Source of the DNA: Tachypleus tridentatus
Lineage: Eukaryota > Arthropoda > Merostomata > Xiphosura > Limulidae
Reading direction: 5' to 3'
Length of the DNA: 64,000 nt
Assembly (NCBI RefSeq): GCF_004210375.1
Contig: NC_134834.1
Coordinates: forward strand, 94,120,170-94,184,169
The notes under the pieces are model-generated. The model searched no databases and was not told the origin of the DNA. It saw only the letters and a program-made list of their open reading frames with translations. A program made the translations under genes and the position numbers. The first letter of the stretch is position 1; the number at the start of each line of letters is the position of its first letter. This document shows positions 33,201 through 61,117 of this stretch, one piece after another.

Positions 33201-36200
33201 AAAAAAAAAAGAGCGTTCCCCAGTGGCTCAGCGATATGTCTACCGGGTTTCGATACCCGTAGTGGTCAGAGTACAGATAGCCTATTGCGCAGCTTTGTGC
33301 TTAATTCAAAACAACAGCAACTTAAAAAGGAGCAGAGTCAATCTCCTCTTTCTAAATTGCCTCTTCCTCACTCTGTTGGTCACTTCGCCTCGCACCCTGC
33401 ACAACCAAAACGTAATCTGATATTCTTCTTTGCGGTGTACCAGTAATTAGAACAAATTCTCCAACACTTTGTTGTTGTTGTTTTTTATCTTTTAATGATT
33501 TTGTAGAAAAACGTTTGCCTCCAGATCAAGTAAAGCTAGAAGGTTCAAAAATCATTGAAACAGTTTCTACTAAGTTTGTGGAAAATATATTACGATGAAA
33601 AAATATCACGCACACAAGGTAAAGGTATATCACTGTCATTACTTTGGGTGTAAAATTGATGAGCAAGATAAACACTGGGCTTCACATGTGTAATACATTT
33701 GGCTTGATACAGTGGTTGAATAAGACGAAAGTAGGTGTGTCACTTGCAGTTCCTATAACAATCTAAATGACTGTTATTTTTGCGAGACTAATATTTCTGA
33801 ATGTTCAGACGAAACTGAACAACACATCAGATATCCAGATATCGCATCTGTAATAAAACCCTCATGCAGACAGTATTCCAGTGTCACATCCACCAGCAAA
33901 TTAGAAAACAGAAGAGTTATCCTGTGAAGAGACAATGAATTATCTTCATCCTCTTCATCTAAAAATTCTATTCCTGTGGCTCCTGAATATAAACTACCTC
34001 ATCTGATCACACAAGAAGGACTAAATAATCTGATTTGTGACTTATCTCTACCAAAGCAGCATGTCGAACTTCATGGTTTTCGTTTACAGCAATGGATTTT
34101 ATTAGCTCTAGGGACAAGAGTTTCAGTTTACCAAAGTTGCCATTAGAGTCTTGTCTCTTACTGCAACATACAAGATACTTTGTGTTCCTGTACAATTGTT
34201 GATACATTAAAGAAAGAATGTAAACCTTTTATGATTTGTCTAAAGTTATTCTAAAAGTTGTGCATTTACACAATGTGAACAGTAATATGTGAGAACAAAA
34301 GAAACTTATCAAAGCATGCAGATTATACTGGAGGCCACCAAGAATGATCAACATAGTTATTGCATTCCTGATATGCCTGCATAATAGGTGCATCAAATGT
34401 TGTTGATTTTTGTGTCTCTGGGATAGCCGAAGTGATAACAATCATTTGAAAAAGAAAGGATGACCATTGAAAAATAATGAGAGAGAATTACATACCAGTA
34501 AAAAAGAATATTGAGTATCAACCTCTTCTGAATCTTTAAAATATCCTTCTGATCCTATTTTATATTAAACTGGGATTCAGGAAACATTCTGTAAAATAAA
34601 TGAACAAAGACAGTAATTGTTTCTGTTTGACAAGCTTCCAACAATCAGTGAAGCAAACATGAAAGGAGGTATCTTTGTTGGATCACAGATTCAGGAAGTG
34701 CTGATTGGTGTTGAATTTTGAAACAGTATTCAATGAGAAATAATTTGCTGCCTGGAAATCAATCAAACTTGTTGCCAAACTTTTCTGTTGTGATGACTGA
34801 ACAAGTGCTTGACAACTACAGAAAATGGGATGTCTAGGATGTCACTGAAGATTCACTTCTTACACTCCCATTTAGAATTCTTTCCAAATGATCTAGGTGC
34901 AATGAGCTATAAGCATAATTAGCGTTTCCAGTAAGATAGTTCTGCAATGGAACGGCGATACGAAGGATGATGGAATCATGCGGTGATGGGAGATTATTGT
35001 TGATTCCTTCAGCGTGAAACTGAGAACATACATAAAACGTGTAACAAGTCAATTCGATATTTTGTAATAAAAGTAATATCATTTTAAAAGCTATTTTTAA
35101 TGTATAACCTAAACCTAGAGGTGATAGACAATTTTCAATGTGACTTTTAGAATTAACATAATCAATTTATAGAGAAATAACTACATTTTTTTTCTGGTAG
35201 TGAAATCTGGTTTTGTTGCCAGATGTTATCAGCTGTTGTTTTGTATTATTGCTTCAATAAATTTGATATAGATGTATCTTCATTGTACACGCCTTAGACA
35301 TTCAAATGGCCACGTGATTAGGGTGTTCGACTCGTAATCTGAGAGTCACGGGTTCAAATCCCCGACATAACAGACATGCTTACCCTTTCAGACATAGGGG
35401 CGTTAAAATATGACGGTCAATCTCATTATTCGTTGGTAAAATAGCAGACCAAGAGTTAGCGGTGAGTGATGTTGACCAGTTGCCTTCCCTCTAGTCTCAC
35501 ACTACTAAATTAGGAACGACTAGCGCAGATAGCCCTCGTGCAACTTTGAGCAAAATTAAACAAACCAACAAACTTTCAAAGCCGCTTAAAATTTCTGTTT
35601 ATGGTTAAGTTCTTATATTTCTGTGTTAAGTTCTTATATTTTTAAAGTCAGGCTATAAACCAGTAACCTCTAACTATGTTTCCGTAATTTACCAATGCTT
35701 CCCTTTTCTGTTCTCCGTCTTTCTTCACAATGTTTTGTCAGTTATAATATTATTAATAGAATTTAACTTTTCCTTAATTTAATGAGCCTGATACAATTTT
35801 TCTATTTTTATATCTAAAAAGAGTTCTTACCGGCCCAGCATGACCAAGTGGTTAAGGCACTCGACTCGTAATCTGAGGGTCGCGGGTTTGAATCCCCATC
35901 ACATAAAACATGCTCGCCCTTTCAATCGTGAGACGTTATAATGTTACGGTTAATCCCACTCTTCGTTTGTAAAAGATGTGGTGGCTGGTGGCAATGACTA
36001 GCTGCTTTCTCTCTAGCCGTAGGCTACTATTTCACCAACGAATAATGGGATTGACCGTCACGTTATAACGCCCCAATGGCTGAAAGTTAATCCCACTCTT
36101 CGTTTGTAAAAGATGTGGTGGCTGGTGGCAATGACTAGCTGCTTTCTCTCTAGCCGTAGGCTACTATTTCACCAACGAATAATGGGATTGACCGTCACGT

Positions 36201-39200
36201 TATAACGCCCCAATGGCTGAAAGGGCGAGCATGTTTTATGTGATGGGGATTCAAACCCGCGACCCTCAGATTACGAGTCGAGTGCCTTAACCACCTCGCC
36301 ATGCCGAGCCAGGTGAAATTCTACAAGTAAGTTGATTTTTACTTTAGATGTATTATCGTTAACAAATTGTTTTTGCCTATCGTAACCAGAACTAGACTTT
36401 GGAACACTGTCACTAGATAATTTGGAACAACTTGCGCAACAAATGAACAGCGTTACAACAATATTTTTGACGCATAATTTTAAAACTAAAATAATAATAA
36501 TTTTTTACTAAGCTTATATATCCTTTTCTCTTCTTTTTTGTTCACTAAATAGAATCAAACATCTGTTGCTGTAACACATGTGCAAAGGATTGTTTGGAAT
36601 TTCGTACAAAGCTACACGAGGGCTATCTGCGCTGGCGTCTAAATTTTGATTTTTTTTAAATTTCGCGCAAAGTTACTCAATAGCTATCTGCGCTAGCCGT
36701 AAGGCTAGAGGAAAGGCAACTAATCATCACCACCCACCGCCAACTCTTGGGCTACTCTTTTACCAATGTATAGTGTGATTAACCGTAACGTTATAATGCC
36801 ATGACGGCTAAAATTGTGAGTACAATTGACGTGGCTGGGAGTCAAACATACAATCCTCAAATCGCGATTGGAGTACCTTAACCATCTGGCCATACCGGGC
36901 CTATGTGCATGAAGAAACAGTGACTGTTTTATTACACTTTGATTAGTGTGATCTTGAATGTATTTCTGCTGTTGTTGTCTTCTAATCTTCTCAATTATTA
37001 TTAATATATTTAGAGCAAGTTACCAAAGAGTGTTTTCAATTTTATCGTTAAAACAGTAAATACAACAATCATGTAATTTTGCTCCCGCAGACAGGCTCGG
37101 CTCATGCTCCTCTCCCTTGTGGGTGGAGTGGGGGGACAGTGGAGCTTTTGTTGCCTTTTTTAGCGATTTAACAAAAACCTATGACTTGTAAAAGTGTATG
37201 ATGTAAATTTTAAAATTGCTTGAGAGTGAGTGGATCAGAGTTAAATAAGGGGGTGCACGTGCCAGTTTAATATCCTCCGAGCGTCGGCTTTTCACGGTGA
37301 TTTGTATTTATTTAGTAACACTAACGTATACATATATTATTCAAAAACAATGATATGAAATAACATTAGCACAACCATAGTACTTTTTCAGTGATGACGA
37401 GAAACCCACTTGTTGAGAAAATTTATATGCAAAAACGGCTCGTTTGCGAAGAAGGTCGAAACGTTGTTCGCTTTTCTATGTAAAAGTGTTTTCTCAGCCC
37501 AAACGAGCCGTTTTTGCATATAAATTTTCTCATAGTACTTTTTGCTATTGTTGTTAATAGAATCTACTTACAACAACACGATGTCCCAAAATCCACTCGT
37601 ACCAGTTGAACTACATAAGGCTCTAAAAGATTGACATACCACCAGGCGGCCTCACCAGTTCCCGCTCTCGTCATTGTACACGTGTCAGCATTAAATAATG
37701 CACTGGTTCTGCCATCTACAGCTTTTTGTGGATTTCCTTTACCTGCTACAGACGATTGCATGGGAGCTTTCCCTGCTGCAATGTTCAATACTGAAGAGCA
37801 TAAAAAAATGAAATCAAATTATTGGCATTTTTAGTATATATATATTCAGTGATAAATAAGAAAAGTAGTTAATAAAAAACTATGTTAGTGAATCTGGGAA
37901 AAAAAAACCACTTTCTATCAAATTAACACTTACGTTTGTTTCTGTAAATATTTGGTTTGTCTGTTTGTTTGTTTTTGAATTTCGCGTGAAGCTACACAAG
38001 GGCTATCAGCGCTAGCTATCCTTAATTTAGCAGTGTAAGGATAGAGGAAGGCAGCTAGTCATCACCACCCACCGCCAACTCTTGGGCTACTCTTTCATCA
38101 ACGAACAGTGGGACTGACCGTCACATTATAACGCCCACACGGCTAAAAGAGTGAGCATGTTTGGCGCGACTAGGATTTGAACACGCGACTCTAAAATTAC
38201 GAGTCGAACGCCCTAACCCACCTGGCCATGCCGGGCCTTTGGTTTGTCTAAAACTTCTATTCTCGGTTCTTAACATTGTGCAATCTAGAATTATAGCTAT
38301 CAGTTATAATATTTAGTCAGTGTATTCACTAATTATTGTAATTACTAATTATGGTAGACAAGTAGAGGTACGCTGGTTTTGACACATAAGTCACAAACGT
38401 AAGAGGTAGGTTCGTTTGTTTATTGTTGTTGTTTGTTATTAATCACAAAACTACACAAAGGGCTATCTGTGCTCTGCTCACCACGGGTATCGAAACCCGG
38501 TTTCTAGAGCTGTGCCACAGGGATGGTCAGTTTTGTTGTGTGTGTTTTTCGTATAGCAGAGCCACATCGAACTATCTGCTGTGTCCAATGAAGGGGATCG
38601 AACCCCTTATTTTAGCGTTGCAAATCCGAAGATTTACCGCTGTCCCAATGAGGGACATCAATTTTGGTATCAAGTTATTATGCAACAGAAAACCTGTGTA
38701 TATGATAATCTTTTAATGTGTTTTGTCACATTCTAGTCAAATGTTTCCTTAAAGAATGACGTTAATATTTATGATACGAATGTTTATCATTTAGATTTAA
38801 AGTTCTTAAATTGAGATATGTTACAATGTAGCTGCCCTAATTACTTTATAAGTTATAGCTTTCAAGCTGAAATATTAAAGTTCAATTTTATATTTATTGG
38901 CTTTTATTCATGATGTTAGAATAACACGTAGGTTCAAGAAGTCAATTCAACACAAAAATAAAGTACTCTATAACCAGAGTGTTTTCAAAAGATCGAACTT
39001 CTTTCCTCAGGGATTCAACACAAAGATACAATACTCTATAACCAGAGTGTTTTCAAAAAATCGAACTTTCTTCCTCAGGGACAAATTTAGCCTCCTCTTA
39101 TTTATACTTTTCTCAATATTTTGTAATTAAAGGATTAAGTAATTCGTTTGTTTATTTCAAAAAGCTCGCGTCCATAATTTTGAACTGATAGGTAATAGTG

Positions 39201-42200
39201 AAGACAGCTAGTCAGTAAAATCTACTTTCAAGCCGATTTTGTCTGGCCATATTTTGGGATTTGATTGTGCTCCTACAGCATCAAAGTGCGGAGAGCGTTT
39301 TTACAGCAACTCCCTGCATATCATGCATGAATCTTAAAACATTCACAACCCGAACCAACTAACAACTAGTTCTTACCAAGCCCATACTAAATAGAAATTT
39401 TAATCTGAAACATATTTAAAATTTAGTTAAAAGTTTTTCATTAAACTTTATATTTTCCAAAGTAATAGCCCCTCCCCCTTTTAATACGTCAGCAGTATGT
39501 TCTAACCTGAGGATCGCGGTTTCAAATCCTCGTCACCATAAACATGCTTGCTCTCTTAGCTGTGGGGGCGTTATAATGTTCGGTCAATCCCACTATTCGT
39601 TTCTGTGTCATCCGTTATGATGGGCTGAAAAAACTCAGGACTAAAGAGTAGTAGTGAGTGGTGATGACTAGCTGCCTTCTCTCCAGTATTTTACTGCTAA
39701 ATTAGGGACGGCAAGCGCAAATAGCCATTGTGTAGCTTTGTGCGAAATTCCAAAACAAACAAACAAGAGGCTATTAGACGGGAAAATGGGTTGGATTTGT
39801 TTGTTATTTCCAAATATGGTATTACATTTCCCTTTTATTTCGTGTACTGACATAGTATCGGTCGTGAATAACACGGTTATATTTTGTACAAGAATACTAA
39901 TATAAGTCACTTCAACTACCGTGTAAATGACAAGCATTTCGAGTTTGTACATTTTTAACAATTATGTATATGCATGTGAGGCGACATCTATAGATCATTG
40001 ATACAACTAAATATCAATAAATATCACACACGATGGATAAAATATAATAAGAAGGACGTCTCGCTTTTAAATATATAAGTAATATTACTAAAACGGCCAG
40101 TTAGCACTAGGTATTACAGAATTCTTCAGTATATTTATAATTTTGTTTTAAAACGGGTTTATTTTATGTGTACTAAAATAAATGTATTTATGCATATTAC
40201 AACGATTTGCATAATGATCGCAGGATTTTGTGTATATCTGCATGAACTGTGTGTACGTATTTATCTAATATTGATGACATCAGTCCATAATATGGACCAG
40301 TTCCTGTAAGGGCAAAGCGAAAGTTTATTTTACAGACACTAAATAAATAGATCCAGCATTGTGTAAGTTTGGAACGAACCACTGAAAAACTTCTATTTGA
40401 ATTAACTAATAAACTAAACCCTCATAATGAACTAAACCCTCAGCAACGTGAACAGAACATCATTAGGGCAGAGCCTTTGGAGACATCTTGCAGTGACCAA
40501 ACTACAATATCAAGAATAGAAGTTTTAAACAAAAATCTTCTAAGAAGGAAACAAAACTAAACATGAAATTTAAAAATATCTCATACATCGAGTTAAAAAA
40601 TGTAAACGAACGAAAATCTGATAGGAGGAAGAAGAGGTCAAGGGTGTAACTAACCGTCCCAAATTTAACAAAAACGGACGTGAAAAATCCTACACAGTGG
40701 ATAAGTTTCCAGTTAGAGAAACATCAGATGATGAGTGGAGCAGTGAAAGGGTTAAGGGAAGTAGATGAGATGAAAACTGTTCAACAAATGTAATTGGATA
40801 CAATGTAACGATTATTGTGTTTTCTTTCTGTTTTAAGTATAGAACAGCGAAGTAATTTACAATTAGTTTAAACAAAAATTGTTTATGATAAAAGTTTCTT
40901 TAAGCGACAAAATATTAAGCAGTTCTTCACTTAATCAAGGCACGTTAAGCTATTTTTGTTTCCCGTTTCTACAAATGCCTTTAACTGCAGTGATAGTCAA
41001 ATAATTGACAATTCCTTAAATTGATCATTCTTCAGTGATAAATAAAGGATGAATGATTGAACTCGAGCTGAATTATTTCATGACCTGCCGGATAATTAAT
41101 GTTTTAGGAAAGGTTTGTTTGTTTTTGAATTTCGCACAAAGCTACTCGAGAGCTATCTGTGCTAGCCGTCCCTAATTTAGCAGTGTAAGACTAGAGAGAA
41201 GGCAGCTAGTCATCACCATCCACCGCCAACTCTTGGGCTACTCTTTTACCAACGAATAGTGGGATTGACCGTCACATTATAACGCACCCACGGCTGAAAG
41301 GGCGAGCATGTTTGGCGCGACATGGATGCGAACCCGCGACCCTCAGATGACGAGTCGCACGCCTTAACACGCTTGACCATGCCGGGCTTTTATTTATTTA
41401 TTTATTTAAGAAACAAACGCAGCATAGCCAATCGGTTAGGCGCTTAACTCGCAATTTCAAGGGGGCTAGTTTGAATCTCCGTCGCACTAAATATACCAAT
41501 CCTTTCAACCTTGGAGACGTTATGATGTTACAATCAATCCGCTATTCGTTGGTAAATGAGTAGCTCAAGAGTTGGCGATGGGTGGTGATGACTAGCTGTC
41601 TTCCCTCTAATCTTTCACTGCTAAACTAGGGAGAAAATGGGCTGGGCCTTTCAAAAGATCTAACTAACTGCTAATTATCTTGTTTGCTTCTTAATTTATT
41701 GTTACAAGGAAACTCCTTCTTAAGGTGACATAATATTGTTCAAAACCTAAAATGTAAAACAGGGCTAACCGAACTTCACGGTTATGAAGCACAATACTAA
41801 AAGTGCACGTGCCCTACTTTTCACTGTTGAAAGCGTCAGGATTTTTAGTTCCATCATGGGCACTAGTCCACAAAGCAGAAAAAAAACACAAACTATGTAC
41901 GATTATCTAGTATGAACTACGTATCGCTTACTTAAAGCAACTGAAAAAACAAAATATTATTAACTGTTCTCGTATGGACCACTAATAATTCTTGTAATGT
42001 AGTAGAACACAATAGTTTTGATAAATATGCATACAAATTATATATGAAGGATATGAGCATCCAGAAAATGATTTTACGTTCAAAAGTAATTTATATAATA
42101 AATTATACAATAAATGAATAAATAATGCGATAATCGTTATAAAAAATACTCTGCGATTTAGCGTATAGGCGACTAAACTTGTTTTGTTGTATTTAATAAC

Positions 42201-51253: not shown

Positions 51254-52699
51254 AACTGCTCAAAGAAATTAAAGGAACAAGTACGTTTCCTTATATAATT
51301 TATCTCAGTGTTTCAAGTGTGATAATATTTTTATTTTTTTTAGGTAATTTGCCTCATTTCAGTTCCATCTGTATCCATTTTTAATGTGTGATGAGCGGTA
51401 AAATATGGAGAAATAAAATTTTTAAAAATGGCCAATATCACCAAAACTGATATCCCATATGAAACAGCACTTTAAACAGTTTACATGCGCTTATTCAAGA
51501 AATGTTTGAAACATTCAATATGCAGTGTGATCTCCACAGGAAGTGACACACTCCTGACACCGATCTGAGGAGGGTGCTAGCGTTCACACGCCTCGACAAT
51601 ATATTACAACAATGTTCAATCTGATTTAAATCTGAAGATCTGGCGGACCACTCAAAGGTCCCTGTTCCTTCTTCGTCAAGGAAGTCCATGCACAGTCTGG
51701 AGACGTGTGCACGCGCGTTAACCTGCATGAGAATGAGCCCATCGCCGACAGCACTGGCAAAAGGCCTCACAATGGGTTCCAGAATTTCGTCTCTATATCG
51801 TCTTGCGTTCAGAGCACACAAGCATATGCCTGCCTAGACCATTACAGAACCTCCTCAATAAGCGTCGACTTGCAGAATGTTACAGGTGGAAAATCGCTCT
51901 ACTTGGCGTCTCCACACTCTCACACGTCCATCATCACGAGACACAATAAATCTGATCTCCTCTGTCCACAGCACGGTGGCCCATTGACGAAGTTCCCAGT
52001 CTAGGTGCTGATGAGCAAACTCCAACTTGGCTGCACGGTATCGCGCTATCAGAATAACGTCTCTTGCAGGCCGTCTGGCCCTAAGACGTCCTTCGTGCAG
52101 ACGATTGCGAACTGTTTGGGTCGACACACGGGTTCCAGTGGAATGCTGAATGTCAGTTCGCAGTGACCAAGCCGTAGCTAGCCCGTCCCGCAGAGCGGTA
52201 GTCATGATGTAGTGGTTCTGTCTGGCTGTTATGCAGCGATGACGGCCTTGACCTGGTCTCCTCCTATAAGAGTTCGTCTCCTGGTAGCGTTACCACAGTC
52301 GATTGATGACGCTTGGTGACACACCGACGCGCTGTGCCACCCTCCTTTGGTCTGGCCATCTGGACCGCTCTAGCCACCTTGTTTTCTGTCAGATGGCGCC
52401 TTACTGCTTGGGTACACAAGATGAAGGTACACACTGACAAAACGAGCCGCAAAAGATCCATGTTGGTGTTTGTTTCGAGAATTAATGAGGAATACATAGT
52501 TTCACATAACAGCGTTATATAGGATACCTTGAGTTGTATTATCCTTGAGTGAGGCGAGTTTGGTTTGAGTTGCTTCAAACTTCACTCGCAAGCTTAAAAA
52601 TACACTTGTAGACGAACGGATATGTTTTTCATACATAAATTTAGTTATGACAAAAATATACTGAAATATGTACTTGTTCCTTTAATTTTTTGAGCAGTA
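51254..52699 (-). mobile_element. Dead Tc1-like transposon, about 1.45 kb
   Basis: Terminal inverted repeats of about 30 bp (ACTGCTCAAAxAAATTAAAG) lie beside TA. The transposase reads on the minus strand: KVARAVQMARPKEGGTARR (HTH, about 52264-52420), SLRTDIQHSTGTRVSTQTVR and WATVLWTEEIRFIVSRDDGR (51855-52205), then LILMQVNARAH and SARSSDLNQIEH (51495-51821). In Tc1 proteins the catalytic residues sit in WTDE, QDNARAH and SPDLNPIE; here the first Asp is Glu and the second is Val, and the gene is split by frame breaks, so it is inactive. Confidence 0.85.
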
Positions 52700-53693
52700 T
52701 ATTCATGTATACCTATTGTTCACAGACGAACTTCATGTGTAATTTTGAATATTTTACAAATTTAATATTTGATATCGCTGATGCGTTTAATACATGTTAA
52801 TCTCATGTCAATTGAATTGGGGGCCTGGCATGGTTAAGGTACCAGGTTCGTAATCCGAAGATCAGAGGTTCGAATTCCCGTCACACCAAACATGCTGGCC
52901 CTTTCAGCTGTGGGGGCGTTATAACGTGACGGTCAATCCCACTATTCATTGGTAAAAGAATAGCCCAAGAATTGGCGTTGGGTGGTGATGACTAGCTGCC
53001 TTCCCTCTAGTCTTACGAAATGTAAGAGCAGTATATTCATGTATACCTATTGTTCACAGATGAACTTCATGTGTAATTTTGAATATTTTACAAATTTAAT
53101 ATTTGATATCGCTGATGCGTTTAATACATGTTAATCTCATGTCAATTGAATTGGGGGCCTGGCATGGTTAAGGTACCAGGTTTGTAATCCGAAGATCAGA
53201 GGTTCGAATTCCCGTCACACCAAACATGCTGGCCCTTTCAGCTGTGGGGGCGTTATAATGTGACGGTCAATCCCATTATTCATTGGTAAAAGAATAGCCC
53301 AAGAATTGGCGTTGGGTGGTGATGACTAGCTGCCTTCCCTCTAGTCTTACGAAATGTAAGAGCAGTATATTCATGTATACCTATTGTTCACAGATGAACT
53401 TCATGTGTAATTTTGAATATTTTACAAATTTAATATTTGATATCGCTGATGCGTTTAATACATGTTAATCTTATGTCAATTGAATTGGGGGCCTGGCATG
53501 GTTAAGGTACCAGGTTCGTAATCCGAAGATCAGAGGTTCGAATTCCCGTCACACCAAATATGCTGGCCCTTTCAGCTGTGGGGGCGTTATAATGTGACGA
53601 TCAATCCCACCATTCTTTGGTAAAAGAATAGCCCAAGAGTTGGCGTTGGGTGGTGATGACTAGCTGCCTTCCCTCTAGTCTTACGAAATTTAA
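52692..53693. repeat. 334-bp tandem array, three units, containing a truncated SINE-A
   Basis: Units start at 52692, 53026 and 53360 and are very similar. Each holds about 130 bp of unique sequence (GAGCAGTATATTCATG onward) followed by a SINE-A from GGGGCCTGGCATGG to CCTCTAGTCTTAC, where the SINE is cut. The first base of the unit falls in the tip of the Tc1 right terminal repeat. Confidence 0.85.
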
Positions 53694-53937
53694 GAATATC
53701 AACTTAAAATTAATTCACTCTTTGTAGACCTGGACCAGAAATAAAATACTCAGTACTAGACCGGATAGAAGACTTATCATAGCTTGTAAGTTTGTACAAC
53801 TTCTGCATATAAATCCTCATTTATAATAGCCATTTTCATAAAATGTATTGTTTGTATATTAAAAATATATTTGTGTTAAGAAAGAAAATTGTGTGTATCA
53901 ATCTTGTTGGAAAGTATAATAAATGTGATACATATGG

Positions 53938-57652: not shown

Positions 57653-57950
57653 TAGAATGACAATTTAAATATTTTAAAGGCAAAAGTAAGAAATCAATTA
57701 TCAGAAGATCCGAATCTAGTTATGTCATACAAATGGAAAACAAACTAACTCCACCATTTAGACTGTACAATATTTCACTTCGCCAGTTCAGACCGAAAGA
57801 GGATTCTTTATTTTTCATACAGGATAAAACAGATAATATACGATTCTGTTCAAATGTTTCTGGCAAATATTCTGAGAAAAGGATCTTTTAATCTTTGTTA
57901 TTAAACACAACAGAATAAAAACACTCAAGTTTGCTTGTATTCATCCAGAA

Positions 57951-57956
57951 TTTATT
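57951..57956 (-). terminator. Knottin gene poly(A) signal
   Basis: AATAAA on the minus strand, about 165 nt past the TAG stop, the first such signal after the coding end. It implies a 3' UTR of about 190 nt. Confidence 0.5.
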
Positions 57957-58118
57957 CAGATACAAGTGCGAATGTATAGCATAGACTTTAATGTAAATAT
58001 ATTGTTAGGTTAAAACATTTTCGTCATACTTAAGTCCTTGAAGCAACCGTAAATATATCTGGCTTATAATTATTTTTTTTTTATCTGCTTTGAACGACAG
58101 GATGACCACCAGGATTGG

Positions 58119-58187
58119 CTATTTAATATCAGGCGTACATGTTCCTGACAAGCAGGTGTAACCTTCACAACACTGGCCATCTTCACA
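58119..58187 (-). CDS. Knottin gene exon 3: cysteine-knot core
   Basis: Acceptor TCTTTTTCCCAG|TGT enters in phase 0. The exon has 22 codons with five cysteines including the adjacent pair, then TAG. It is too short to be picked up by an ORF-length filter. Confidence 0.8.
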   Translation of the reverse strand, partial: CEDGQCCEGYTCLSGTCTPDIK

Positions 58188-61083
58188 CTGGGAAAAAGAT
58201 TAAAGCACGTGTATGGAAATCTGTCTTTCACTTTTTCTGCTGTCATTTCAACTAACTCTTATCCTAGCAAAACGTTTCAAAATTTATTGATGCTTCAAAT
58301 AATTTATTATTTGAAACCTAAGAGATTCAGTAGTATTGTTATTATTAATTTCATTTTGGAGAAGCATTTTAAAGACGTTATGAAAATGCAGTAAGATAAA
58401 CAAGCTGTTCGTATCTATATATCTTAACTATTAAACCTACGTTTTTGCCTTCCATTTTTAGATAAACTCTAAGTAGATGATTACTTTGCAATGTAATACA
58501 GTTTGAACGAAAAATTCGAATTGCTACGTTATATTTCTCAGAAAACATTATTATTTGTTAGCTCATACAAATTTTTTTTTTTTGTTTTTGCACGAGAAAT
58601 TATTCTACGTATTCGTTCATAAATATTGTTTAAACAGATATAGAAACTTATTCAAACATTTACGGGTTTTTAAGTCATTTTTATCACCAGAAAATAACCT
58701 CAGATAATTTCAGCACGTAAATATTTCAATCGTCAATAAATCAACTTAAATTAACCTCAAAATACCCATAAGATTTATGCACAAATTACCATTATAAGAA
58801 GCCTAATTGTATACTGTTGGTCAAAATGTTTATATATTTTGTAACAAGTAAGATCATTATAATTAAAATGAAATACAAATACACCTAGTGCTGTCAAACT
58901 GAAAAATACATGTTATATTAATCATAATGAGACAGGTTCTATGGACATCGTCAACGATTTACGTATTATCACAGAAAACAATTTTATCAGGTATCTGTAG
59001 AAAGATTTGTGATTCAGTGTTTCCCCTACCACAACAAAAAACCTTATCGAAACATATATAATGACAAACGATAATGTCAAATTATGAGATGTAGCGTCTG
59101 CAACCTCATATCAATTCAAACTAAACCTTTAGTATTTGGTTGTACCTCCTCGTAATTTAATATCCTCCGTAAGGCAACGTGGCATGCTGTCAATGAGGTT
59201 TTGATGTAATCCACCGTAATTTCATCTCAATTTGTCACTAGAAAGCGCTGTAACTCAGTTACAATAGTTGTTGTAATGATGTGATTAGTAACTTTTCGAT
59301 TCAAGTGGATTACAATTTGAATACTTGTCATTCTTGTAACGTCCTCCTGGTCGACATAACCCTGTACAACATGCGAACTGTGAGCAGTGACACTGTCATC
59401 GTGGAACAAAACTATTGTCAACCTTACTCTGGTATATGCAAAAATATCATCTCTATATGATGCATGTGAGAGATGATATTGACGTTTTCCTTGAAGATAC
59501 GGAGCCGCCCAACTATGAACTGCACCACCTACTATGTGTTTTCCTTTAGAAAAATGGTCTTCCCGCAACTGTTCTGTCGACAAACGACGAACACGAATCT
59601 CACCATAAAACAGCCGGAAACGGAACTCACCTTAAAATATGACATGTTGTCAAGTTTCTGAACTGTAAGTTGACAAGCTGTCTTACCCAAGTAACATGGT
59701 GACGGTGGTGACTTTTGGTTCATATCGGTTTGCAGATAACCTTTTCTGCAAAATGACATTCTCTGGTTAGTCTCCTACTCACTTTTTTTTGGGAGGATAC
59801 CCTGAAATGAATGTGTTTATGCTATTCTTATTGTAAGAAGTTACAAGACTTCTTTCGATCTTAACCTAATCAAAACCCAGTCATCTTTGGCACCAGTGTT
59901 TCGGTGTCTACCAGAAAACTTTCCTGTAATCCAATGACGTTTCAGGATTCTGGATACAGTATATAACACTGAGAGTACTCTACTACTCTGGTGATGTCCG
60001 TTTGTTCCATACCTTTTCTGGACAGTCGAACAATTTGACGCCCTGTAACTTCTGGCACGTGACGAGGCATAACTCTACACCAATTACAGAGAAACTGTCT
60101 GAACAAAGCGTTGATCTGTTTCGAAAAAGATTATATCAAAACCACACCCTTCTACACATAACAGGCATGTTTGTTCGTTTTAACAAACAAATGCTCAAAA
60201 CAAACCAGAATAATAACTCTTACATGTTTGCCTGATCTAACACTAACTCTCTGTTATTAGTCGGGTATTCAATCAGTAACTACTTCATGCATGTAAACAA
60301 TAACGTCAATATAGAACATTATGCAAACATTTTTGCCATCGATATATTTCTTTGGTTTGTTAGCCTCAGCTCAAGGTGTTCTGATGAGCCTTGATAAGGC
60401 ATTCTTCGGTTTGTTAGCCTTAGCCCAATGTGTTCTGATGAGCCTTGATAAGACGTTCTTCGGTTTGTTAGCCTTAGTTCTATGTGTTCTGATGAGCCTT
60501 GATAAGGCGTTCTTCGGTTTGTCAGCTTTAGCCTAAGGCGTTCTGATGAACCTTGATAAGGCGGAGCTGCAGTTCACAACATGAGTACAGCCAATCAAAA
60601 CAAACAAACGAACCAAAAAAAAAAAGGCATTAGACCTCTACGTCACAGATTCTCCTTTCGGTTTTACTTTTGATAAGGAAATAAAAAGAAAAATTAACGT
60701 ATATTTATTACCTTATCATGGTACCTCAAACAGGATCGATGTGCCTTTACTATCGGAATGGCATCCACAGCAGTTACTATGTCAACCAGACCAAGTGTGA
60801 GCAGCAATACTGATGCCAAAATGAACCACTTACTCATTTCGAATACAGAATACAACCGTAACTGTAGGCAGTGAAGATGTTTTCTAGTGAAATAATTTTG
60901 TTGTTAATATTAAAGAATATGGTTTATAACACACAACGATTAAGATGATCGTAAAACGCTAATTACAAAACGTTTTCAGTAATGTATTCTTTTCAAAGAA
61001 ATTCTTGAAATCCATACTAATATAAGTATTCAAATACTTCTCAATATCTCTACTTACCAAGATTTCCTTTGTTCGAAGAGAGT
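58119..61083 (-). CDS. Secreted six-cysteine knottin peptide gene
   Basis: Three exons: non-coding 61083-61058, signal-peptide exon 60861-60712 (CDS from 60837) and cysteine-knot exon 58187-58119. The product is 64 residues: a signal peptide of about 23, a short linker containing IPIVKAHR, and a C-terminal domain of about 30 residues with spacing C-x6-C-x4-CC-x4-C-x4-C, the inhibitor cystine knot pattern. The family includes horseshoe crab hemocyte tachystatins (chitin-binding antimicrobials), spider ion-channel peptides and arthropod defence peptides. Unlike tachystatins the cysteine domain is slightly acidic (three Arg/Lys against five Asp/Glu), so a defence role is not assured. Both coding exons agree in phase (0). 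The 2.5-kb intron carries a dead Tc1 element. The function is unknown; the fold is inferred from cysteine spacing only. Confidence 0.78.
59216..60070 (-). pseudogene. Second Tc1-like transposase relic, in knottin intron
   Basis: From ATG at 60070 the minus strand reads a Tc1-type HTH (QIVRLSRKGMEQTDITRVVE), then MSFCRKGYLQTDM, RRLSTEQLREDHF (59583) and GGAVHSW, then IVLFHDDSVTAHSSHVVQGY (the second catalytic region; family DDNAPAHR) and DVTRMTSIQIVIHLNRKVTN. It is frameshifted and its catalytic blocks are eroded. It differs from the element at 51254. The terminal repeats are not clear; TACTGTTGGTCAAAATGTTT near 58813 may be one. Confidence 0.72.
60348..60563. repeat. 54-bp minisatellite, four copies
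   Basis: Unit TTCGGTTTGTTAGCCTTAGC onward, ending CTTGATAAGGCG. The period is again a multiple of three and keeps a spurious 18-residue frame open. It lies in the knottin intron, about 150 bp from the signal-peptide exon. Confidence 0.85.
60712..60861 (-). CDS. Knottin gene exon 2: start codon and signal peptide
   Basis: The exon begins after acceptor CACTGCCTACAG; 24 nt of 5' UTR precede the ATG at 60837. The 42 codons include MSKWFILASVLLLTLGLV, a textbook signal peptide with likely cleavage after VTA, then the first cysteine of the knot (HRSCLR). It ends AAG|GTAATA, phase 0. Confidence 0.8.
61058..61083 (-). other. Knottin gene non-coding exon 1
   Basis: The short leader between the predicted start site and a consensus donor (CTTG|GTAAGTAG, donor GT at 61057-61056). 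The intron to exon 2 is about 200 nt. Confidence 0.55.
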
Positions 61084-61117
61084 GATACTAAACAACAAGA
61101 AGGGTAAATATATATAT
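61080..61117 (-). promoter_or_regulatory. Knottin gene core promoter (TATA plus initiator)
   Basis: On the minus strand a TATATATATTTA run (61117-61105) lies about 30 nt upstream of TATCACTC, whose A at 61083 fits an arthropod initiator (TCA-like). TATA-to-start spacing is canonical, and a consensus donor follows about 25 nt downstream. Confidence 0.55.

Follow-up and report, generated by a model that had tools for sequence, protein, structure and literature searches.

We examined a window of 64,000 nucleotides from the horseshoe crab Tachypleus tridentatus (C10:94120170-94184169 of a 2.17-Gb, 205-contig assembly) and, within it, a small gene on the minus strand that encodes a six-cysteine peptide. 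Taken as a whole, the evidence is best explained by a real horseshoe crab gene of single occurrence, whose product is a secreted, compact inhibitor cystine knot (ICK) mini-protein that follows the plan of the tachystatins and tatritin and acts as a non-lytic, specific binder. We consider this explanation likely. We read it as probably genuine and built on the tachystatin/tatritin plan, and as a probable new relative within a known kind.

The initial annotation had proposed that three exons form a compact gene encoding a secreted peptide with six cysteines in knot spacing, and a TATA-like box, a leader exon, a signal exon, and a stop were indeed found in that order on the minus strand. Sequence anatomy, single occurrence, common gene layout, and charge were read directly. 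The features are as follows (positions are those of the window; a slash marks a splice junction).

61105-61116, minus strand: TATA-like box TATATATATTTA, a motif match alone.
61089 (the A), minus strand: initiator-like motif TTTAGT, 27 nt downstream of the TATA-like box; predicted start of transcription.
61058-61089, minus strand: putative leader (5' untranslated) exon 1 of about 32 nt, ending CTTG/GTAAGT, proposed from sequence signals.
60862-61057, minus strand: intron 1, GTAAGT...CCTACAG, inside the leader, read from the sequence.
60712-60861, minus strand: exon 2, with 24 nt of leader and 126 nt of coding sequence (60837-60712), read from the sequence.
58188-60711, minus strand: intron 2, 2524 nt, phase 0, directly 5' of Cys2, with acceptor TTTTTCCCAG, read from the sequence.
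58119-58187, minus strand: coding sequence of exon 3, 22 amino acids and a TAG stop, with Cys2-Cys6 and a tail, read from the sequence.
57951-57956, minus strand: poly(A) signal AATAAA, 163 nt past the stop, a motif match.

Exon 2 encodes 42 amino acids, which comprise a signal peptide, IPIVKAHR as a putative propeptide, and then Cys1-X6 (cleavage sites are predicted), and it ends at the donor AAG/GTAATA. The 64-amino-acid precursor across both coding exons reads MSKWFILASVLLLTLGLVDIVTAVDAIPIVKAHRSCLRYHDK followed by CEDGQCCEGYTCLSGTCTPDIK. Its cysteine pattern is C-X6-C-X4-CC-X4-C-X4-C (loops of 6, 4, 0, 4, and 4), with the knot-compatible order C-C-CC-C-C. The likely mature peptide, given the predicted cleavage, is a 30-mer with a computed isoelectric point (pI) of 4.83 and a net charge of -2, in agreement with the acidic and compact cysteine core described earlier. 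Of the "two introns with matching phases" claimed in the initial annotation, both introns stand, but the matching phases shrink to one phase-0 intron because intron 2 alone interrupts the coding sequence. An AATAAA poly(A) signal is likewise present, but its nearest copy (57956-57951) lies slightly beyond the interval assigned to the gene (58119-61117). A further AATAAA occurs at 57812 on the minus strand, and weaker poly(A)-like motifs are found closer to the stop (AATAAT at 58074 and ATTAAA at 57992). Intron 2 also contains four tandem copies of a 54-bp unit (60348-60563) and, by eye, Tc1-like frames on the minus strand (59230-60130); two of these frames were scanned, and neither matched any Pfam family.

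The gene layout recurs elsewhere in the same genome. The arrangement of Cys1-X6, a phase-0 intron, and then Cys2 was found, as in the window gene, in all five sister loci for which both coding exons were read, i.e., tachystatin A (L043), tachystatin B1 (L042), two acidic tachystatin-like genes (L042/L015 and L045), and tatritin (L046/L047). A sixth locus (L014), of which the terminal exon alone was read, is consistent with the same layout. These loci were picked by sequence family or by a published primer, not by layout, with the exception of tatritin exon 3, which was located in L047 by its Cys-led pattern. A genome scan with the Toxin_12 model returned three places, all below the cut-off, and led to L014 and L015, each a terminal exon encoding part of an acidic tachystatin-like peptide; L042, upstream of L015, holds the remainder of the acidic gene together with the tachystatin B1 gene. 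The corresponding scan with Tachystatin_A returned 18 places, one of them over the cut-off, through which tachystatin A on C4 and a third acidic tachystatin-like copy (L045, C3:40.3 Mb) were located; among its other sub-cut-off places (C1, C7, C8, C12, C13, and three on C3), one of the C12 pair was read. Tatritin was located on C8 through a 25-base tatritin primer from a T. tridentatus paper, which had one exact match in the genome.

The exon joints of two sister genes are supported because their spliced products agree with published data: splicing the L042 exons gives a chain identical at 42 of 42 positions to tachystatin B1 as solved in the PDB, and the two coding parts of tatritin (41 + 27) give 68 amino acids, equal to the published length. 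Tatritin, an antimicrobial ICK peptide of T. tridentatus, has been described as a gene of three exons, with coding sequence in exons 2 and 3 only, that is unannotated in the genome (PMC8984021; this and the other papers are cited from excerpts). An acceptor-like CCTCAG 5' of the tachystatin B1 ATG exon is consistent with a leader exon there as well.

As for the genomic arrangement of the sister genes, a distance of about 3 kb separates tachystatin B1 from an acidic tachystatin-like gene at C3:39.62-39.66 Mb, and three copies of the latter were met (L042/L015, L014, and L045). Between the terminal exons of L014 and L015 there are four nucleotide differences, all of them synonymous, and the L045 copy has one amino-acid change.

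The sister genes bear on how distinct the window peptide is. Its charge was correctly described as unlike that of the cationic tachystatins (pI of 4.83 versus 9.43 for tachystatin A and 9.69 for tachystatin B1), and no Pfam tachystatin model matches it. The suggestion of a distinct family, opposed to the tachystatins, is not supported in that form, as the layout is common to tachystatin A, tachystatin B1, the acidic tachystatin-like peptide, and tatritin (pI of 10.13 for the compared stretch). Nor can acidity serve as the distinguishing mark, given that the acidic tachystatin-like peptide of the same genome has a pI of 4.65.

Each coding exon of the window gene was found once in the assembly; it is therefore not a repeat family at the sensitivity of our searches. 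With the full precursor (E value of 0.001), the two window exons and nothing else were recovered; with the mature peptide and with exon 2 (E values up to 10), the window exons and one junk match each were recovered. The genome search scores the best candidates only, so weaker relatives may escape it. Several weak matches were rejected as relatives. The match at L004 (E value of 1.47) sits, by eye, in an intron of a TIL-type inhibitor-like gene, and the frame matched at L017 (E value of 6.99) has neither a cysteine nor a correctly placed start codon. Among sub-cut-off profile matches, L013 (Toxin_12) is a C-X5-CC fragment reading into a stop, and L044 (Tachystatin_A) contains no knot-like frame among those with at least three cysteines or a signal-like start. 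A match of the SafA profile (E values of 0.0069 to 0.02) was attributed to the hydrophobic signal peptide. A literature search with the peptide strings returned no paper. Inspected by eye, the L004 locus (L004:1404-2734) itself resembles a gene for a TIL-type inhibitor, with a signal exon, a phase-1 donor, and a ten-cysteine terminal exon.

A signal-peptide-like open reading frame and an unrelated cysteine-rich one, 2.5 kb apart and not co-transcribed, could imitate such a gene by chance alignment, which we regard as unlikely. A terminal exon was defined for scanning as AG/TGY with four further cysteines in knot order and a stop within 12 codons, and a paired signal exon as one that codes for a signal peptide, ends with Cys-X4-8 in front of a donor, and lies no more than 8 kb upstream. 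A stricter earlier scan (150 windows, one terminal match, no pairs) had overlooked the window's own signal exon; the hydrophobicity threshold was relaxed from 10 to 9 of 11 after that scan and before the larger one. In 2000 first-order Markov windows of the same composition, 24 terminal-exon-like matches arose (0.012 per window), none of which had an upstream signal-peptide exon ending in Cys-X4-8 within 8 kb. Under the same relaxed rules, the real window contains exactly one pair of terminal and signal exons, in addition to a second signal-type exon located at 39786 on the plus strand. Real DNA of the same genome (200 kb, L022-L041) yielded no terminal-exon-like match and six signal-type exons. 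Chance alignment is further opposed by the recurrence of the exact layout in the five sister loci and by features that exceed what the scan required, i.e., the leader exon, the TATA/initiator spacing, the strong acceptors, and the poly(A) signal.

A number of results nevertheless count against a real gene of this plan. Given rates of 0.012 terminal-like exons per window and, for signal-type exons, 0.66 per strand and window, about one chance pair per 1000 windows is estimated, corresponding to some tens (approximately 34) across the genome. Because that many chance pairs are possible, our gene call rests on the sister genes and not on the scan statistic alone. A Cys-led terminal exon is also partly inherent in how such genes get noticed. 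Chance alignment is further favored by the fortuitous appearance of the comparable match at L004 and by the exon 2 donor, which has no usual G at +5 and is thus weaker than the GTAAGT donors of tachystatin A, tachystatin B1, the acidic tachystatin-like gene (L042), and tatritin, all four of which are the same. The Pfam tachystatin models PF11406 and PF11478 matched neither the mature peptide nor the precursor at E values up to 10. The Toxin_12 model (PF07740), which represents ion channel inhibitory knottin toxins with a cysteine spacing close to that of the window peptide, scored 14.6 bits (E value of 0.052) with the mature peptide, below its 21-bit cut-off, and 12.1 bits, also below the cut-off, with the precursor. 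The PDB search gave nothing better than an E value of 0.25. A neighboring gene (described below) has five close paralogs; for two of them, the 100 kb lying upstream were searched and showed no second copy. The exons of the neighboring gene were recovered at both loci searched.

Residue-level comparisons add to these points. With the cysteines fixed, window loops were scored against sister loops and against shuffles. Shuffles scored as well in 2367 of 5000 cases for the acidic peptide, in 1721 of 5000 for tachystatin A, and in 2508 of 3000 for tatritin; against these three, the window loops did no better than shuffles. Similarity to tachystatin B was weak (145 of 5000 shuffles as good by score and 192 of 1500 by identities). 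The acidic peptide and tachystatins A and B are mutually alignable (0, 17, and 63 of 3000 shuffles as good for the acidic-A, acidic-B, and B-A comparisons, respectively), and tatritin aligns with none of these three (1505, 2513, and 1740 of 3000 for the acidic peptide and tachystatins A and B, respectively). Because its loop scores resemble those of shuffles, we place the window gene like tatritin, with a common gene plan and a sequence of its own; by the criterion of sequence, the window gene is not a tachystatin. An alternative reading is a pseudogene, i.e., a degenerate or recently silenced tachystatin or tatritin copy with decayed loops. Loops shorter than those of the sisters, the weaker donor, the acidic charge, and the lack of a paralog in the searches made would all fit such a copy, but the frame, the six cysteines, the splice sites, and the stop are all intact, and the short C5-X4-C6 loop is the same as that of tatritin; we therefore consider decay very improbable.

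Among the named systems, tatritin resembles the window gene in its three-exon plan with coding sequence in exons 2 and 3 (the leader being predicted in the window), its intron position, its CC-X4-C-X4-C core, and its being a small, unannotated gene. It differs in its basic pI, in a second loop of X7 versus X4, and in showing no residue similarity beyond the cysteines. Tachystatins B1 and B2 (PDB 2DCV and 2DCW; PF11478) share with the window gene a six-cysteine knot, S-C-L at Cys1, CC-x-G-x-x-C, and the same intron, but they are basic, with loops of X7 and X11, and the window peptide fails PF11478. The solved tachystatin B chain begins directly after the predicted signal peptide, whereas the window precursor has a putative propeptide. 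The acidic tachystatin-like peptide on C3 shares S-C-L at Cys1, the intron, QCC-[DE]-G-x-x-C, and acidity, but has loops of X7 and X11 and, unlike the window peptide, can be aligned with tachystatins A and B outside the cysteine positions. The hymenopteran tachystatin-type ICK peptides naickins and amickin-1 likewise have a phase 0 intron before the second cysteine, as far as the excerpts of PMC2853521 describe, but come from insects and have an extended C-terminal part in which proline and positive charges are abundant.

Transcription, processing, disulfide pairing, expression site, and action are inferred for the window gene. Its transcript would begin with a short leader exon; the next exon would code for the signal peptide, a putative propeptide whose last residue is basic, and Cys1-X6, and the last exon, after the phase-0 intron, would contribute Cys2-Cys6. 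Cleavage of the precursor would leave a peptide of approximately 30 residues and 3.3 kDa, and three disulfides (C1-C4, C2-C5, and C3-C6, by analogy) would make it a very compact knot. Release from hemocytes, epithelium, or neurosecretory cells appears most likely.

Tachystatins are antimicrobial and chitin-binding, and tachystatin C alone among them is hemolytic, according to the part of PMC8984021 consulted. A classical antimicrobial role like that of tachystatins A to C would fit the gene plan, which is that of known horseshoe crab antimicrobial knottins, but appears doubtful for a peptide that is not cationic (compared with pIs of 9.43 to 10.13 for tachystatin A, tachystatin B1, and tatritin) and matches no Pfam tachystatin model. 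The acidity of the peptide argues against membrane lysis, as it does for the acidic peptide on C3; since its loops are short and it lacks a cationic face, it would be unlikely to attack membranes in the manner of tachystatin C (hemolytic) or tatritin (slightly hemolytic). Most likely, the window peptide acts by binding a specific partner, such as an ion channel, a receptor, chitin, or a protein, among which the sequence cannot choose. A tentative alternative, somewhat more probable than the antimicrobial role but less likely than not, is an endogenous modulator of ion channels or receptors, neuropeptide-like and similar in role to the agatoxin-like peptides of arthropods. Pfam listed no model other than Toxin_12 for the mature peptide, and agatoxin-like knottins have been reported from honeybee neuroendocrine tissue and from a spider hemocyte transcriptome (PMC6468893, in part). 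However, the score was subthreshold, and at E values up to 10 Toxin_12 also gave sub-cut-off matches in 1 of 14 bacterial-type control genomes (Tachystatin_A did so in 2 of 14).

The intron before Cys2 invites a broader hypothesis, to which we give little credence, that it marks one ancient arthropod knottin lineage that arose before chelicerates and insects diverged, in which the window gene would represent a non-defensive branch, an acidic, compact, endogenous ligand of a channel or receptor. Such a lineage would embrace the horseshoe crab tachystatins, tatritin, the hymenopteran ICK peptides, and the window gene, and the venom knottins of chelicerates could have been recruited from such ligands. 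In bee and wasp tachystatin-type ICK peptides, the phase 0 intron before the second cysteine is described as conserved (PMC2853521, excerpts). That statement was found in PMC2853521 only and not in the consulted portions of PMC6468893, PMC8984021, PMC6700725, and PMC9865768, and we found no statement that horseshoe crab genes share this intron in the excerpts of the open-access literature on knottin and tachystatin introns. As a sequence-independent marker, the common intron could help to find full knottin gene sets in chelicerate genomes, where coding pieces of 126 and 69 nt are easily overlooked by annotation, and could test a single origin of defense peptides, neuropeptides, and venom knottins. 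An acidic natural knottin of 30 residues could also be useful as a compact scaffold.

Elsewhere in the window, exons with four Sushi domains, an F5/8C-like domain, and a C-type lectin domain (Pfam) lie on the minus strand at 15891-44523 and probably belong to one gene, which presumably resembles Drosophila furrowed. Five exons closely paralogous to its lectin exon lie on C6, C10 (three), and C13 (61 to 73% identity), and three further paralogs are weaker (29 to 34%). In the genome at large, the profile of coagulin (PF02035), a clotting protein of horseshoe crabs, matched 19 places, compared with none of the 14 control genomes; together with the tachystatin B1 gene and the exact match of the tatritin primer, this points to a horseshoe crab, most likely T. 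tridentatus. A piece of a Tc1/Tc3-type transposase (HTH_Tnp_Tc3_2, Pfam) is located at 51858-52289 on the minus strand. A perfect 137-bp tandem pair (35949-36223) and three copies of a 334-bp unit at 98% identity (52692-53695) are each probably recent duplications.

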